From: Bacteroidales bacterium
GTDB lineage: Bacteria > Bacteroidota > Bacteroidia > Bacteroidales > UBA7960
DNA length: 36,702 bases
NCBI GenBank assembly: GCA_019429365.1
Contig: JAHYJD010000026.1
Span: forward strand, 1-36,702
Direction of reading: 5' to 3'
Below the pieces are notes generated by a model. It made no database searches and was not told where the DNA came from. It saw only the letters and a list, made by a program, of their open reading frames with translations. This document shows positions 6,939-12,482 of the stretch, in pieces. Numbering within the stretch: the first letter of the stretch is position 1; each line of letters begins with the position of its first letter. The translations under genes and the position numbers were made by a program.

Positions 6939-7733
6939 ATGGAACTTAAACAGGGCAAGATGATTTATTTTGTTTCCGACAGCCACTTGGGCGTGCCTTC
7001 GCATGCCCGGAGCCTGGAACGCGAAAAGTTGCTGGTAAAATGGCTGGATACTGTGAAACACGATGCGGCCGAAGTTTACCTGCTTGGCGATATATTCGAC
7101 TTTTGGTTCGAATACCGCACCGTGGTGCCTAAAGGCTTTGTGCGCCTTTTGGGTAAAATCGCTGAACTAACTGATAGCGGCTTGCCGGTATATTATTTTA
7201 CAGGCAACCACGACCTTTGGGCCTTCGGCTATTTCGAGAAAGAACTTGGTGTGCAGTTATTTCGGGAGCCTGTTGAAAAGACCTACAACGGCAAGAGTTT
7301 TTTTATTGGCCACGGCGATGGGCTGGGCCCCGGCGACAACGGGTATAAATTTCTTAAAAAGGTTTTTACTTCACGTTTTAATCAGAAACTGTTTTCCTTT
7401 TTGCATCCGGGCTTAGGCACTGGGCTGGCGCTCTATTTTTCGCGCAAGAGCCGCATTGCCAACATGGCCGCCGATGAGGTTTTCCTGGGCGAGGAGAAAG
7501 AGCGGCTGATCGCTTTCTGCAAGGATATGCTGAAGGAAAAACACTATGACTATTTTGTGTTTGGGCATCGCCACCTGCCGCTCGACATAAAAGTTAGTGA
7601 GAACGCGCGTTACATCAACACCGGCGACTGGGTCACACAGTTTACCTATGCAATGTTTGACGGGGAAAAACTGAAACTGGAAAAATTTTTGAACAATACA
7701 ACCTTTATTGAAAAAAACTCGTCCCTTCAATAG
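6939..7733 (+). CDS. LpxH-like UDP-2,3-diacylglucosamine diphosphatase (calcineurin-like phosphoesterase)
   Basis: A 264-residue metallophosphoesterase with the full set of metal-binding motifs: SDSH (residues 13-16), LGDIFD (Asp51), GNHD (89-92), HGD (125-127) and GHRH (209-212). The segment GDIFDFWFEY is typical of the LpxH branch, which hydrolyses UDP-2,3-diacylglucosamine to lipid X in lipid A synthesis at the inner membrane face. Length fits. The start could also be the ATG at 6960 (MIYFVSD), which is where many homologues begin. The 3' end of this gene overlaps a promoter-like site for the next operon (7699-7724). Confidence 0.82.
   Translation: MELKQGKMIYFVSDSHLGVPSHARSLEREKLLVKWLDTVKHDAAEVYLLGDIFDFWFEYRTVVPKGFVRLLGKIAELTDSGLPVYYFTGNHDLWAFGYFEKELGVQLFREPVEKTYNGKSFFIGHGDGLGPGDNGYKFLKKVFTSRFNQKLFSFLHPGLGTGLALYFSRKSRIANMAADEVFLGEEKERLIAFCKDMLKEKHYDYFVFGHRHLPLDIKVSENARYINTGDWVTQFTYAMFDGEKLKLEKFLNNTTFIEKNSSLQ
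7699..7724 (+). promoter_or_regulatory. Candidate ECF sigma promoter A (CAACCTTT - 17 - CGTCC)
   Basis: The -35-like CAACCTTTATT at 7699-7709 and the -10-like CGTCC at 7720-7724 are separated, from AAC to CGTC, by 17 bases. AAC and CGTC are the commonest core elements of ECF-dependent promoters. A near copy lies at 10443-10467 before the second lipoprotein gene. The predicted transcript would begin near 7731 and carry the lipoprotein, sigma and anti-sigma genes. The site lies inside the last codons of the upstream gene. Confidence 0.5.
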
Positions 7734-7768
7734 AGCGTTTTGATTCTCTTTCTGAAAATGTAATTATA

Positions 7769-8494
7769 ATGAGGTATAAATACCTAATTGTCTCAGGCAT
7801 TGTCCTGCTTTTCTTTATATCGTCTTGTATTGAAGATGACCTCAATAAACCCGTCAGGGTAGATGTGGAATTTTTATTGGAAGAGAACCCGCTGACTATA
7901 ACCTATCTGGATTTCACCAATGCTGTTGTAGCTTTGGATATGGTGAGGTTTTACGGGATCAGGCAAGTTGGTAACGATGTGTTTTTTACTTCGCGACCTG
8001 GCTTCTCGTTTGGAACCTTTGTAATTCCTGCCCACCAAAATTCCCGGAATGTCACTTATTTTGATGTGCCACAGGGTATTTATAGCATGATTCGCTGGGA
8101 TGCTGAATTAACCGAGATCAACGAAAATGTATATGATGATGAGTTAGTGGACAGTGACGATTTCGGGTTGATTTTTGAAGGTACCTACACCCGTCTGGAT
8201 GGATCGTCGGTGTTATTGTTCATCGCTGTCGACCCGTCGGTTTTATCTTTCGAAACACTAAATGCCGCGGGAAATAATGTCATCTCGCTTGAAAGCAAGA
8301 ATAAGTATACCGTTTCTTTTGAACTTAACCCTTATCTGGCTATGCAAGGGATATCGCGCAGTTTGTTAGAGCAGGCCGAAACAGACTCTGAAGATGATAT
8401 TGAGTTTATTGAGATTTCTTCGGATGAAAATGAAGAGCTTTTTGAACTGGTGTTGTTCAGGCTGGAAAAAACTTTTAAAGCTGTGATAAGGTAA
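7769..8494 (+). CDS. Putative lipoprotein, DUF4382-like, first gene of the ECF sigma operon
   Basis: A 241-residue lipoprotein of unknown function. Its signal peptide ends in lipobox FISSC with Cys20 as acylation site. The mature part is beta-rich (for example FDVPQGIYSMIRWDAEL) and ends in an acidic tail segment (EQAETDSEDDIEFIEISS) followed by an amphipathic stretch. The P-G-Y-x-x-I-R pattern recalls DUF4382 lipoproteins, but this is a weak assignment. The gene downstream of the sigma/anti-sigma pair (10542-11279) shares the same order of elements, so the two may be distant paralogues. It lies 10 bases before the sigma gene, so it is probably cotranscribed and may act as sensor, co-regulator or target. 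Confidence 0.75.
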   Translation: MRYKYLIVSGIVLLFFISSCIEDDLNKPVRVDVEFLLEENPLTITYLDFTNAVVALDMVRFYGIRQVGNDVFFTSRPGFSFGTFVIPAHQNSRNVTYFDVPQGIYSMIRWDAELTEINENVYDDELVDSDDFGLIFEGTYTRLDGSSVLLFIAVDPSVLSFETLNAAGNNVISLESKNKYTVSFELNPYLAMQGISRSLLEQAETDSEDDIEFIEISSDENEELFELVLFRLEKTFKAVIR

Positions 8495-8504
8495 TCGTCG
8501 TTTG

Positions 8505-9050
8505 ATGGCCAGGTACTTTGATTTAGAGGAGGAAAATATTATTTCGGGTTGCCTGGATGGAGACCGCAAATTCCAGGAACAGCTGTACAGGAAGTACATT
8601 GACGATATGTACAGGGTTTGTCTTACATACGAATCGGATCGGGAAACGGTGAAGGACATTTTGCAGGAAGCATTTGTGAAAGTATTCAGGAGTATTGGGA
8701 GCTACGACAGAACGGGCTCACTGAAGGGCTGGATAAGGCGGATCGTAGTAAACACCGCCATTGACCAATACAGAAAAAAAGCCAAGGTGGAAGAGTTTGT
8801 TGATATTGATGAAATTGCCAATGACGAGTCAGAAATAACGAGAGAACCCGACACAACGGAAAAAGAAGGAATTGACATTATTGCCCATGTGGATCGTCTA
8901 CCTAACGGGGCAAAAATGGTCTTTAACCTTTTTGCCCTCGAGGGATATTCGCATAAAGAAATTGCTCAAAAGCTGGGTATCAGCGAGGGAACCTCAAAGT
9001 CGCAATTCAGCAGGGCAAGAATGCTGTTGCAGCAATGGATTAAGAATTAA
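8505..9050 (+). CDS. ECF-type RNA polymerase sigma factor
   Basis: A 181-residue sigma-70 family protein with only regions 2 and 4. Region 2 spans about 24-92, with DILQEAFVKVFRSIGSYD for core binding and WIRRIVVNTAIDQYRKK for the -10 element. After an acidic linker (93-125), region 4 spans about 126-178, with the helix-turn-helix GYSHKEIAQKLGISEGTSK. The ATG at 8505 is preferred over the TTG just before it. It sits 10 bases after a lipoprotein gene and 5 bases before a membrane protein with an anti-sigma-like N-terminus, the usual arrangement of an ECF factor with its regulator. Promoter-like sites with the AAC...CGTC pattern occur before its own operon and before the next gene. Confidence 0.93.
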   Translation: MARYFDLEEENIISGCLDGDRKFQEQLYRKYIDDMYRVCLTYESDRETVKDILQEAFVKVFRSIGSYDRTGSLKGWIRRIVVNTAIDQYRKKAKVEEFVDIDEIANDESEITREPDTTEKEGIDIIAHVDRLPNGAKMVFNLFALEGYSHKEIAQKLGISEGTSKSQFSRARMLLQQWIKN

Positions 9051-9055
9051 CCAGA

Positions 9056-10351
9056 ATGAATCAGAAAGATCTGATAGAAAGATATAAGGAACAAGTGGCA
9101 GCCTCGAAAGAAACTGCCCCGTTTGATCTTTGGCCGGATATTTCCAGGAAACTTGATGTGGAGGAAATCTGGGACAATGTTTCGGCAAGGCTCGACCGTG
9201 AGGAAAAAAAGAAGCCCATTTGGCTTTGGGCTTCGTGGGCCGCAGTGCTGGTTGGGATTATCTTTTTGGGTTCGCTTTTCTTAATGGATATTAATAGCAA
9301 AAATCGCTCAGACAGGGAACTTGCCGGCGGACAACCCACCAATGGTTTGCCTGTTAATGCTGAAACGGATGAAGCCATTGATGAGCAAGTGGATATTCTG
9401 AAAATACAGGCTGCTGCCGATTCGACAATAATAATCCGTGAGGCTGCAACATCTTCCTCTTTGCTTGCCCTTGATGAGGGCAGTAAAATGGCTGACAATT
9501 CTGTAGATTCTTCTTCTTTTGAATACCGCAGGCAAGCCCGTGCTGATGATCTTTTGGCAGCAAGCCAGGTTTTTCCAGAAGAACAAAATCAATTTAAAAC
9601 CGAATATCTCAACCTGATTCAGCTCGCGCAGGTTTCGGTCGATGAGCCCGGTATTTTGAATAAAACCAAGTCTCTTCAGCTCCCTGAGCAGACAGTTGAC
9701 GACTTTTTTGCATTGGATGGCAGTTCACCGGTTCTGTCTTTTGGGCTTACCACAGCCATTAAAAATACCTGGCTTTTTAATCAGGAGACAATAGATGGGT
9801 TTAATGTAAATGTGCCTGGCAAAACCAACCTGAAGTTCTTTCCTGACCTTGGTCTAAATATAAGGTACCGCTTTATGCCTCAGTGGGCCTTTGAAGTGGG
9901 TGCCTTTTTTTCCTCCAGAACAGGTCAGAGTTATCAACAATTTATTTATGGCCGGTTTACCCAAAAAGAAATTGCTTTGAACTATATGCAGCTTGAACTG
10001 CTGGGCAGCCGGATGGCTAAAAAATCATTTGCTTATAACTCAACAGTAATTCAACCCAGAACCTCAGCCGGAATATACCTGGCAGGACTAAACACCGCCT
10101 CAGAAACCATTGGCGGTGAGCGTGAAAAAGTAATTGACCGGTATAATAATAATGACATTGGCTTTATACTGGGTCAGGATTTCGACATTAGCCTGGGATC
10201 AAACCTGACCCTTTCGCCCGGCCTTTGGCTCAAGTGGGGGCTTAAAAATGTGTATGCCGGCGAAGCTTACATTCCGGCTTCCCTTAAGGAAACCTATAAC
10301 AGAAGCATCGAATTCAGGATTTCAATTGATTATCATTTGAACACGCCTTGA
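9056..10351 (+). CDS. Anti-sigma-like membrane protein fused to an outer-membrane beta-barrel-like domain
   Basis: A 431-residue protein with three parts. Residues 1-52 are a charged, helical cytoplasmic segment containing FDLWPDISRKL and VSARLDREEKKK, the size and position of a short anti-sigma domain. One membrane helix follows at about 54-76 (WLWASWAAVLVGIIFLGSLF). After a low-complexity, Asp/Ser-rich periplasmic linker (about 80-220) comes a C-terminal region of about 200 residues with alternating strands, such as LGLNIRYRFMPQWAFEVGAF, ending in a strand (SIEFRISIDYHL). This resembles the small OMP_b-brl/PorT-like barrels of Bacteroidota. It probably holds the preceding sigma factor inactive and senses the envelope; membrane topology is inferred. 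It starts 5 bases after the sigma gene. Confidence 0.75.
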   Translation: MNQKDLIERYKEQVAASKETAPFDLWPDISRKLDVEEIWDNVSARLDREEKKKPIWLWASWAAVLVGIIFLGSLFLMDINSKNRSDRELAGGQPTNGLPVNAETDEAIDEQVDILKIQAAADSTIIIREAATSSSLLALDEGSKMADNSVDSSSFEYRRQARADDLLAASQVFPEEQNQFKTEYLNLIQLAQVSVDEPGILNKTKSLQLPEQTVDDFFALDGSSPVLSFGLTTAIKNTWLFNQETIDGFNVNVPGKTNLKFFPDLGLNIRYRFMPQWAFEVGAFFSSRTGQSYQQFIYGRFTQKEIALNYMQLELLGSRMAKKSFAYNSTVIQPRTSAGIYLAGLNTASETIGGEREKVIDRYNNNDIGFILGQDFDISLGSNLTLSPGLWLKWGLKNVYAGEAYIPASLKETYNRSIEFRISIDYHLNTP

Positions 10352-10442
10352 AATTCTTTTCCCTCCTTTGCGCTTTCCACCAGTTTTCCTGCGTGCTGAA
10401 CAGAAATTTCTTTTTCATGTTTATTTTTTTTAGTAAAAGTTC

Positions 10443-10467
10443 CAACCTTTTTTAAAAGCTTCCGTCC
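10443..10467 (+). promoter_or_regulatory. Candidate ECF sigma promoter B (CAACCTTT - 16 - CGTCC)
   Basis: CAACCTTTTTT at 10443-10453 and CGTCC at 10463-10467, with 16 bases between AAC and CGTC. It matches site A (7699-7724) at 10 of 11 upstream and all 5 downstream positions. A transcript would start near 10474, about 68 bases before the lipoprotein start, and would contain the hairpin at 10478-10496. Confidence 0.5.
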
Positions 10468-10477
10468 TCTTAATAGC

Positions 10478-10505
10478 AAGGCATAAAAACTGCCTTCGTT
10501 TTTTT
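10478..10505 (+). terminator. Weak hairpin with T-run downstream of the sigma operon / in the leader of the next gene
   Basis: AAGGCA (10478-10483) pairs with TGCCTT (10491-10496), followed by T7 at 10499-10505. The six-base stem is weak. It could end the sigma/anti-sigma transcript or attenuate the lipoprotein transcript if promoter B is used. Confidence 0.3.
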
Positions 10506-10541
10506 GCAAAATCAACAATTATTAATTAAATCTCCACAAAG

Positions 10542-11279
10542 ATGAAAACCAATGCTTTTTTAAAAACGGCAATTATTCCCATAATTCTTGCTTTAGTCCT
10601 AATGTCGTGCGAAAAGGAAAAACAGGGAGGGCTTACCCTTAAGTTTTCCGGCACAACCCCAACCAGTGGTTTGGCAATAAAATCATCCAATGCTGATGCA
10701 GTGGTAGTTATTGAGAGCTTCAAGATTAATATCGGTGAAATTGAACTTGAATTTCACGATGATCAGTTTATTTCTGATTCAATTGGCTGGGATGACGAGA
10801 TTGAACTGAAGGGGCCATTTGAAATTGATCTGATAAAAAATGGTGATGGAATGGTCACCACCATCCTCTCCAACGTTGAGCTGCCCCCGGCAGGATACGA
10901 AGAGATCGAATTTGAATTCAAGAAGAGCAGGAATTCAATATCTGAAATGTATCAGAAAACGGTGCTGGTAAAAGGAACCATCAATGGCGTTCCATTTGTA
11001 TACTGGACCGACGAAGAATTTGAGGTCGAAATTGAATTTGATGATGAGGTGTATGTTGACGAAGCCACCCTCGCAGTGGTTAATGTTTCTTTTAATATTG
11101 CTTCATTATTCGACCCGGCACAAGGTGGTATTAACATTGCCAACGCCACTGATGGAAATGGCAATGGCATCATCGAAATTTTTGAAGACGATCCGGATGG
11201 AAATGAGGATCTGGCTGAGAGGATTGAAGATCGCCTGGATGATATTATAGAGGCCTTTGAAGACCAGTATGATGATTAA
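10542..11279 (+). CDS. Putative DUF4382-like acidic lipoprotein
   Basis: A 245-residue lipoprotein of unknown function: signal peptide with lipobox VLMSC (Cys23), then a beta-rich domain whose segment EIDLIKNGDGMVTTILSNV followed by ELPPAGYEEIEFEF fits the DUF4382 pattern of NG, then L, then LPaGxYxxI. The C-terminus is strongly acidic, with a calcium-loop-like DGNGNGIIEIFEDDPDGNED and a helix of alternating acidic and hydrophobic residues. Domain order mirrors the lipoprotein at 7769-8494. An ECF-promoter-like site lies upstream and a strong bidirectional terminator downstream, so it is likely a monocistronic target of the neighbouring sigma factor. Likely anchored in the outer membrane; role unknown. 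Confidence 0.75.
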   Translation: MKTNAFLKTAIIPIILALVLMSCEKEKQGGLTLKFSGTTPTSGLAIKSSNADAVVVIESFKINIGEIELEFHDDQFISDSIGWDDEIELKGPFEIDLIKNGDGMVTTILSNVELPPAGYEEIEFEFKKSRNSISEMYQKTVLVKGTINGVPFVYWTDEEFEVEIEFDDEVYVDEATLAVVNVSFNIASLFDPAQGGINIANATDGNGNGIIEIFEDDPDGNEDLAERIEDRLDDIIEAFEDQYDD

Positions 11280-11302
11280 AAATAGTCTTCCCCCTCCCCA
11301 AT

Positions 11303-11335
11303 AAAAAACGGGCTGGAGTTTCCAGCCCGTTTTTT
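11303..11335. terminator. Bidirectional intrinsic terminator
   Basis: A perfect nine-base stem (CGGGCTGGA, loop GTT, TCCAGCCCG) is flanked by A6 on the left and T6 on the right. It therefore serves both the lipoprotein gene on the plus strand and the converging coiled-coil lipoprotein on the minus strand. Confidence 0.9.
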
Positions 11336-11359: not shown

Positions 11360-11800
11360 TTAATCATCGAGCAACTCTCTTACCTTTTTTGAAGTTTCGT
11401 TGGTTTTGGCACGAATCTGCCTGATGGTCTCCGAGGTCTGGTTGATGCGGTCGTCCCACTCTTCAATGCAACAGTCCCTTATCTCGTTAATTTCCTTAAC
11501 CACCAGGTTTTGTTGCTCTATCAGCACTTTTTTGGCCTCTTCAAGTTCTGTCTTTACCTCGCCGGTAGCTTCATCAATTTCGGTTTCCAGGTAGGCAATG
11601 CGCTCCTTAATGTCGTCGTTTACCTTTTCAAGATCGGCCATCACAGACTCCTTGACTTGCTTCAGTTTTTCCATTTTGGCTTTTTCTTCTTTGCTGGGGC
11701 CACAGGAAATCAATACCAAGGCAGCAACCATCATGGCAACAATCCCAGTTATTTTTGAAAATAACTTTCGTGTTTCATTTTTTTTCGGGTGTTTTTTCAT
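11360..11800 (-). CDS. Coiled-coil lipoprotein (paralogue 1)
   Basis: A 146-residue lipoprotein: a basic N-terminus and hydrophobic segment end in lipobox VLISC (Cys33), and the remaining ~110 residues form an almost unbroken charged heptad pattern with no proline (VKESVMADLEKVNDDIKERI and onwards), so a long coiled coil is expected. It ends in RAKTNETSKKVRELLDD. The next gene upstream (11986-12426) has the same plan and clear similarity, including ERIAYL, a central Trp-Asp and the terminal KTNE-S-KVRELL. The pattern recalls the sll1863-type stress-response proteins, but I am not sure of that family. Function is unknown; a periplasmic strut or spacer is possible. A 13-base palindrome lies about 90 bases upstream. 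Confidence 0.75.
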   Translation of the reverse strand: MKKHPKKNETRKLFSKITGIVAMMVAALVLISCGPSKEEKAKMEKLKQVKESVMADLEKVNDDIKERIAYLETEIDEATGEVKTELEEAKKVLIEQQNLVVKEINEIRDCCIEEWDDRINQTSETIRQIRAKTNETSKKVRELLDD

Positions 11801-11884
11801 AGGTCTGGCATTTTTGGTTTAATAATTATCCGGAAGGAACAATATTTTCGACTCAAATAAAGAACCGTCTGAACTATATGCGGC

Positions 11885-11897
11885 TCATTACTAATGA
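11885..11897. promoter_or_regulatory. 13-base palindrome TCATTA-C-TAATGA upstream of coiled-coil lipoprotein 1
   Basis: Six-base perfect arms around a single central base, 85-97 bases upstream of the start at 11800. It has the size of a dimeric repressor or activator site; nothing else supports that. Confidence 0.25.
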
Positions 11898-11985
11898 TTT
11901 AAGCGCCAACCAAAAAGAAAAAAACGTTACACTAATATAGTAAAAAATTTAAAGAGAAGCAGTTCAATGACATATTATGCCATAA

Positions 11986-12426
11986 TTATTCATCTTCCAA
12001 AAGTTCCCTGACTTTAAGTGATGCTTCGTTGGTTTTTGAGCGGACTTCAGAAACCACATTGTTGGTCTCAGCAACAACTGCATCCCAGGTATCGAGCGAG
12101 GCTTCCCTTACTTTTTCTAGTTCATTTTCTATGGTGCTGAGTTGAACTTGAAGGTCCTCCCTGGCTTCGAGGAGTTCTTCTTTTACATCTTCGCCGGCCT
12201 CCTCAATCTGGCTGTCGAGGTATGCTATCCTTTCTTCAAGGTCGTCCTTAATGTCGGCAAGGTCAGCGGTTACACTTTCCTTCACCTCATTAAGTTGCTC
12301 TTCCATAACTTTTTGCTGGCCTCCGCCTCCGCCACATGACCACATTAAAAGGGCTGAAAGCAAAATTACCACTAGTGCTGCAAATTGGGTTTTTTCAATA
12401 AGGAATTTAATACTTTTTGACTTCAT
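11986..12426 (-). CDS. Coiled-coil lipoprotein (paralogue 2)
   Basis: A 146-residue lipoprotein, the same length as its neighbour. The ATG at 12426 is chosen because it directly begins the signal peptide (MKSKSIKFLIEK, lipobox LLMWSC, Cys31); the upstream GTG at 12450 would add eight residues. After a glycine run (CGGGGGQQK) comes a proline-free coiled coil (VKESVTADLADIKDDLEERI) ending in RSKTNEASLKVRELLEDE. The two paralogues lie head to tail with a 185-base gap, too wide for simple translational coupling, so separate regulation is possible. A run of ten G on the plus strand (12483-12492) lies 57-66 bases upstream. Function unknown. Confidence 0.75.
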   Translation of the reverse strand: MKSKSIKFLIEKTQFAALVVILLSALLMWSCGGGGGQQKVMEEQLNEVKESVTADLADIKDDLEERIAYLDSQIEEAGEDVKEELLEAREDLQVQLSTIENELEKVREASLDTWDAVVAETNNVVSEVRSKTNEASLKVRELLEDE

Positions 12427-12482
12427 CACAATGGGTTTTGATTTATACACAAAAAATTCAAAAACAAAACCAGTCCCTGGTT

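Follow-up and report, generated by a model that had tools for sequence, protein, structure and literature searches.

What does an extracytoplasmic function (ECF) sigma factor govern when its gene, together with that of a membrane protein, is bracketed by genes for two lipoproteins? This arrangement occurs in a 36,702-nt stretch of DNA (the window) from a Bacteroidales bacterium, covering positions 1-36,702 of the forward strand of contig JAHYJD010000026.1 (GCA_019429365.1; genome of 3.57 Mb, 95.9% complete). We propose, with a probability of roughly 80%, that the four genes form a self-regulating outer-membrane alarm belonging to the Dma / EcfO-Reo class. The elements of the unit are the following:

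7699-7723, + strand: putative ECF-type promoter P1, CAACC (7699-7703), 16-base spacer, CGTC (7720-7723); motif scans
7769-8494, + strand: lipoprotein A, 241 amino acids, lipobox Cys20, without Pfam family; open reading frame, Pfam scan, alignment, model
8505-9050, + strand: ECF-type sigma-70 factor, 181 amino acids, ATG at 8505 (TTG at 8502 possible); Sigma70_r2, r4_2, TIGR02937
9056-10351, + strand: predicted anti-sigma/barrel protein of the Dma/Reo class, 431 amino acids; AlphaFold2, Foldseek, hhalign
10443-10466, + strand: putative ECF-type promoter P2, CAACC (10443-10447), 15-base spacer, CGTC (10463-10466); motif scans
10542-11279, + strand: lipoprotein B, 245 amino acids, lipobox Cys23, weak DUF4382; open reading frame, Pfam scan, hhalign

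The reading frames agree with the initial annotation of this DNA, which had four adjacent genes with gaps of 10 and 5 bases around the sigma gene (10 bases if the ATG at 8505 is used). The ECF type of the sigma factor, also part of that annotation, is clear from Pfam (Sigma70_r2 3e-16, r4_2 4e-14).

A predicted outer-membrane barrel in the anti-sigma factor

The AlphaFold2 model of the membrane protein, built on 56 homologues, opens with helices at residues 3-16, 26-32 and 35-51, followed by a long helix (54-90) within which a transmembrane (TM) helix is predicted. The region from about 91 to 219 is modelled mostly at low confidence (predicted local distance difference test, pLDDT, below 50 at 91-160, 191-210 and 215-219) and is probably a disordered tether. 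Eight strands follow (226-428), most of their blocks having a pLDDT above 90, and Foldseek matched this barrel to OmpA, OprG and OmpW (best 2.3e-9). Pfam gave only OMP_b-brl_2 for the window protein, below cut-off (E=0.0067), the same family being reached at E<=0.01 in 29 of 56 members of the barrel family; sequence comparison with solved structures yielded two chance-level matches only. The barrel-like domain proposed in the initial annotation is thus weak in Pfam but borne out by the modelled strands and by Foldseek.

These data bear on whether the genes might encode an ordinary FecR-type surface-signalling pair lacking an outer-membrane barrel. A sigma gene followed by a membrane anti-sigma gene is a common layout in Bacteroidota and would fit such a pair; however, profile scans gave no FecR match, on which ground a FecR-type identity of the anti-sigma was rejected, the model and Foldseek point to an eight-stranded barrel, and no TonB-dependent receptor occurs among nine proteins scanned around the unit. 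We regard a FecR-type pair as very improbable.

Assignment to the Dma / EcfO-Reo class

The protein was compared with five barrel anti-sigmas from NigD-flanked sigma pairs (loci L171, L173, L176, L185 and L188), a set defined by NigD neighbourhood and not by published accession. hhalign was used in global and local modes, the local values carrying more weight. Against the five, the window protein scored 99.2% in global mode. The local scores were 98.0% for the whole protein (166 columns on the barrel side), 98.1% for the N-terminus plus TM helix (69 columns) and 95.5% for the N-terminus alone (34 columns). None of seven control proteins, of which three were meant as barrel-only, exceeded 15.8% (local). 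The sigma-barrel pair adjoins NigD in four of seven flank-fetched NigD_N loci (29 NigD_N matches overall), co-directionally in L171 and divergently in L173, L176 and L188; L174, L175 and L189 are NigD_N loci with no adjoining pair. L185, located through its barrel gene, has a NigD neighbour too (NigD_N 3.7e-20, NigD_C 1.6e-37).

Since both ends of the protein match NigD-adjacent barrel anti-sigmas, the window anti-sigma is, by sequence homology, a member of the published Dma / EcfO-Reo class. The homology goes together with an adjacent ECF sigma gene and, by prediction, with a TM helix, a long tether and a C-terminal barrel. The initial annotation had suggested a dedicated envelope circuit not recognisable as a named system. 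The circuit survives as a conserved sigma/anti-sigma unit with ECF-type promoters; its unnamed status does not, homology and domain order placing it with Dma/Reo.

Dma proteins are described (PMC13088901) as comprising an N-terminal sigma-binding part, a TM helix, a disordered tether and a barrel, and as lying beside ECF21 sigmas. The Dma/Das systems of Bacteroides thetaiotaomicron have in common with the window unit an adjoining ECF sigma gene and the domain order predicted here, including a presumed sigma-binding N-terminus; the Dma2 operon genes go up on deletion of the anti-sigma, and increased outer-membrane vesiculation upon deletion is a further trait of the class. They differ in their surroundings: the window pair is flanked by two homologous lipoproteins, whereas the neighbours of Dma2 are DUF4943 and DUF4858 proteins and Dma1 works through NigD1 (same source). 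In the second branch (PMC13114119, PMC9308784), Reo of Phocaeicola vulgatus extends from the cytoplasm to the cell surface. Antibacterial toxins induce its sigma, and the EcfO-Reo regulon includes three nigD genes. EcfO-Reo of P. vulgatus and Bacteroides fragilis is like the window unit in its cytoplasm-to-surface barrel anti-sigma and sigma and in having lipoproteins in its regulon, as predicted for the window. NigD gene M0N98_03762 is numbered beside sigma 03761 and anti-sigma 03760, the place that lipoprotein A takes here. The branch differs in that NigD has no homology to lipoproteins A or B detectable by profile comparison and in that NigD loci lack the promoter motif described below. NigD_N (PF12667) has zero matches in the host genome at its 95.9% completeness. 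Among the texts that literature searches made available, we found no published description of a Dma/Reo-class circuit with such a lipoprotein pair.

A separate observation concerns the anti-sigma N-terminus. A unit with an APxxLWxxI-like pattern occurs in tandem in some barrel proteins, in two copies in seven of 62 and in three copies in one (L057:7001-8479, L052:6893-8269, L077, L101, L104, L106, L107 and L111); 32 proteins have a single copy and 22 none. One anti-sigma with repeated N-terminal units might hold several sigma molecules.

Conservation of the four-gene unit

A barrel-protein search gave hits (E<=0.001) in 31 of the 98 genomes covered. Sixty loci were taken from a scan of named genomes with the barrel-protein alignment; with the window and a paralogue in the same genome (L042) they make up a set of 62, which includes close strains (e.g., L059 and L061, both Anaerophaga). 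Because loci were picked by the barrel-protein motif alone, their neighbouring genes were not selected for. In loci whose contig leaves room, the sigma gene always stands immediately before the barrel gene (56/56) and lipoprotein A before sigma (54/54), while 41/51 have a B-type lipoprotein gene no more than 1 kb past the barrel gene. Gaps within the A-sigma-barrel operon range from -34 to +46 bases, except for a sigma-barrel distance of 242-259 bases in three loci. The initial annotation would have been contradicted by a gene order found in the host genome only; the order recurs in dozens of loci. By record title, 57 of the 60 further loci belong to metagenome-assembled genomes or uncultured organisms, and the other three to named isolates of Anaerophaga thermohalophila (two loci) and Geofilum rubicundum (one). 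Attributing all 144 profile matches among 295 order-level genomes to this family was considered and rejected, as many of those listed are weak and cover the TM/tether part only; 12 of the 295 reach E<=1e-30 in the barrel-protein profile scan.

The host genome holds a second four-gene unit (G000:C83; L042:5159-8902), which includes a lipoprotein clearly of the DUF4382 type; its sigma and barrel genes are 259 bases apart, and this interval contains an open frame of up to 97 amino acids. A third sigma and barrel anti-sigma pair (G000:C20; L170:484-2371) has no A/B-family lipoprotein labelled beside it.

The lipoproteins

A first iterated hidden Markov model of lipoprotein A took in lipoprotein B, and the families were therefore redefined by position. 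The alignments comprise 54 of 55 A proteins (paralogue excluded), 41 of 47 downstream lipoproteins (excluding four cut-off frames, the paralogue and L068) and 56 of 62 barrel proteins (excluding incomplete frames and the paralogue). The lipobox Cys is present in 55/55 A and 47/47 downstream lipoproteins. The A and B families share homology in their mature parts, scoring 96.8% over 193 columns (hhalign, local) against at most 0.4% for seven control pairs; the two lipoproteins that had been annotated as having the same layout are thus moreover related. Compared with NigD (38-row set) or with the barrel protein, A and B scored 0.1% in the same mode. Kinship of lipoprotein A with NigD (PF12667) was rejected on this score and on its lack of a Pfam match.

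Lipoprotein A of the window has no match in Pfam, and three families each match a single one of the 54 aligned members. C20 is invariant in the 54 rows, as are P28, R65, Q102, G103 and N221. Lipoprotein B of the window matches DUF4382 (PF14321) below the family threshold (17 bits where 25 are required; E=0.007), and 33 of the 41 downstream lipoproteins scanned match it at E<=0.01 (best 4.5e-37). One published paper that mentions DUF4382 deals with archaeal glycoproteins. Two or more acidic residues stand at +2 to +6 after the Cys in 45/55 A and 43/47 downstream proteins, with K at +3 in 40/55 and D at +4 in 33/55 of the A family. These residues look similar to the surface-export signal K-(D/E)2 demonstrated in Capnocytophaga (PMC5080379). 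Most likely, A and B are surface-exposed effectors that do the job of the NigD lipoproteins in gut Bacteroidales.

The model of lipoprotein A (pLDDT 92.7) found nothing in Foldseek at E<=0.001. Its nearest solved fold by VIA-align is MbnP (7l6g; Z 9.3, root-mean-square deviation 4.1, 187 residues), fimbrial-type matches being weaker. The Z score lies slightly over the 7-8 typical of the tool's best match, identity is 11%, and the match is no evidence of metal binding. It would nevertheless suit a rival reading in which the barrel binds an extracellular ligand (a glycan, a metal or a toxin), so that the unit would sense nutrients or toxins and the lipoproteins would serve as its binding proteins. 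Dma2 was proposed by its authors to sense glycans, and EcfO-Reo is inducible by antibacterial toxins (PMC13088901; PMC13114119, PMC9308784, respectively). Yet a common fold is no proof of function, the invariant residues of lipoprotein A include no His, and the nine proteins scanned in this neighbourhood comprise neither SusC/SusD nor a transporter. We consider a ligand sensor of this kind unlikely.

Predicted promoters in front of both lipoproteins

The matching ECF-type promoters seen before both lipoprotein genes in the initial annotation could be followed across the loci. In the window, CAACC-N15..17-CGTC has three matches against 0.55 expected, and two of 100 shuffles reach three; such a count is only suggestive, and it is conservation that makes the predicted promoters convincing. 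Motif discovery in 102 upstream regions returned TCCAACC-N16-CGTCTT. Of the regions preceding lipoprotein A, 50/55 carry the loose form, CAAC[CT]-N14..17-CGT[CTA], as do 36/47 of those preceding the downstream lipoprotein; the figures are 0/56 before sigma, 0/58 before the barrel gene and 33/1220 for random pieces. Both promoters are present in 32 of the 42 loci having both regions. The strict form, CAACC-N14..17-CGTC, gives 35/55, 35/47, 0/56, 0/58 and 19/1220, respectively. Positions 7731 and 10474, named in the initial annotation, lie 8 bases past CGTC and were read as start sites. P1 overlaps the lpxH-like gene that lies upstream (6939-7733), being situated within its 3' end.

The host genome (3.57 Mb) contains four matches to a more stringent pattern, TMCAACCYTTN{11,13}CGTC, and none to its reversed control; the four are P1 and P2 of the window operon and of the paralogous operon on C83. 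The loose motif matches eight times in this genome, four at the module and four elsewhere. Over 59 genomes the stringent pattern gave 34 sites in 22 genomes. Thirty of these were examined, of which 22 lie just upstream of an A/B-family lipoprotein gene; two more (L209, L224) stand before a gene for a receiver-domain protein, close to the module or to its lipoproteins. The four sites outside these thirty coincide in position with module promoters already known (three of them in the host genome, one in G002), bringing the sites before lipoproteins to 26 of 34. Family lipoproteins outside the discovery set also have the strict motif, in L259, L262 (a short contig whose surroundings are seen in part), L264 and L266, where two B-type genes have one match each.

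The same promoter also precedes genes for receiver-domain proteins (PF00072) located near B-type genes in two genomes of one genus (L057:8707-9252, 1.9e-25; L266:1878-2519, 5.5e-23).

The placement of most stringent sites before these lipoproteins can be read in another way, namely that lipoprotein A is part of the sensor: sitting on the barrel or threaded into it at the surface, its presence, absence or misrouting would set the anti-sigma, making the unit a surface-lipoprotein homeostat. Besides the 26 of 34 sites, the constancy of A next to sigma (54/54, against 41/51 for B) and a correlation of 0.90 between A and barrel pairwise distances over 55 loci speak for such a role. However, shared inheritance would produce such a correlation anyway (it is 0.86 for A and sigma, 0.88 for sigma and barrel), and family lipoproteins also occur on fetched stretches without a barrel gene, which fits an effector. 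We therefore hold a sensory role of A to be doubtful. Equally tentative is the fuller version, in which the family would be both the signal of the barrel, via A, and almost the sole product of sigma, the cell measuring and restocking its surface coat. If true, DUF4382-type lipoproteins of Bacteroidota would be stress-induced coat or vesicle proteins.

A promoter common to the NigD branch was looked for and rejected, CAACC-CGTC being absent from all 16 upstream regions scanned (220 bases; 13 NigD loci and three other sigma genes). The NigD-sigma intervals of L173, L176, L185 and L188 share, by eye, another element, TTTAACA...GCAGTA, a candidate for the NigD-branch promoter.

Model and its weight

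Sequence-level evidence for the alarm reading consists of the gene unit, the homology to NigD-linked anti-sigmas, the promoter motif, the homology between the lipoproteins and their lipoboxes; the topology of the anti-sigma is predicted. We infer sigma binding, signal, release and lipoprotein function as follows. The anti-sigma would place its N-terminal helices in the cytoplasm, cross the inner membrane with one helix, and reach through a periplasmic tether of roughly 130-150 residues to an eight-stranded outer-membrane barrel. At rest it would hold the ECF sigma. A disturbance of the barrel, whether through misassembly, damage to the outer membrane or a ligand, would be relayed along the tether and free sigma, which would then act at P1 to produce lipoprotein A, sigma and anti-sigma, and at P2 to produce lipoprotein B; in relatives, more family lipoproteins would follow. 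As ECF-type promoters precede both lipoproteins, sigma is predicted to switch on the lipoproteins together with its own sigma/anti-sigma operon, and as P1 would drive sigma's own inhibitor, the alarm should reset itself. Outer-membrane stress is favoured as the signal on account of the EcfO-Reo data.

A number of observations weigh against this reading. The N-terminal helices are of medium to low confidence (block pLDDT 57-73), so that, of the structured parts, the one presumed to bind sigma is modelled with the least certainty, and the low-confidence tether contains two weakly predicted helices. The barrel alone scored just 77.2% against the NigD-linked barrels (local mode). Ten of 51 loci have no B-type gene within 1 kb; among these, L057 and L069 have one further downstream, L065 has it in divergent orientation and L090 is a short contig, and in L057, L062, L065 and L069 the promoter motif stands right after the barrel gene. 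The motif was learned from the same upstream regions in which it was later counted, and is missing before lipoprotein A in 5/55 cases and before the downstream lipoprotein in 11/47. Six of the 34 stringent sites are unrelated to the module. The reversed pattern gave 37 sites against 34 over the 59 genomes; because site number is thus not enriched, the promoter claim is carried by placement. Among six further lipoprotein paralogues, L261 has no motif and L263 a distant weak match (L260 has a one-letter variant). Finally, the NigD-branch regions lack the motif, hence promoter specificity differs between the branches.

Relative to the known class, the new elements are a four-gene variant with a lipoprotein pair in place of the NigD of the gut branch, a defined promoter, more family lipoproteins under the same motif and a small predicted regulon. 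In the portions of the literature available to us the class has so far been studied in gut Bacteroides and Phocaeicola (PMC13088901, PMC9308784, PMC13114119). The 60 further loci present its architecture with a different, conserved lipoprotein output and give DUF4382-type lipoproteins a regulatory context. This suggests a general rule by which an outer-membrane-spanning anti-sigma drives surface lipoproteins whose families are interchangeable. The four-gene unit is a small circuit suited to testing which signal acts.

Neighbouring genes

The LpxH-like UDP-2,3-diacylglucosamine diphosphatase gene (6939-7733) ends 35 bases before lipoprotein A and has no match in the 20 other loci scanned. On the other side (window positions 11360-12450) are genes for two small lipoproteins, convergent to the four-gene unit, that resemble each other (E about 1e-29); one of them falls just under the cut-off of the sll1863 stress family.

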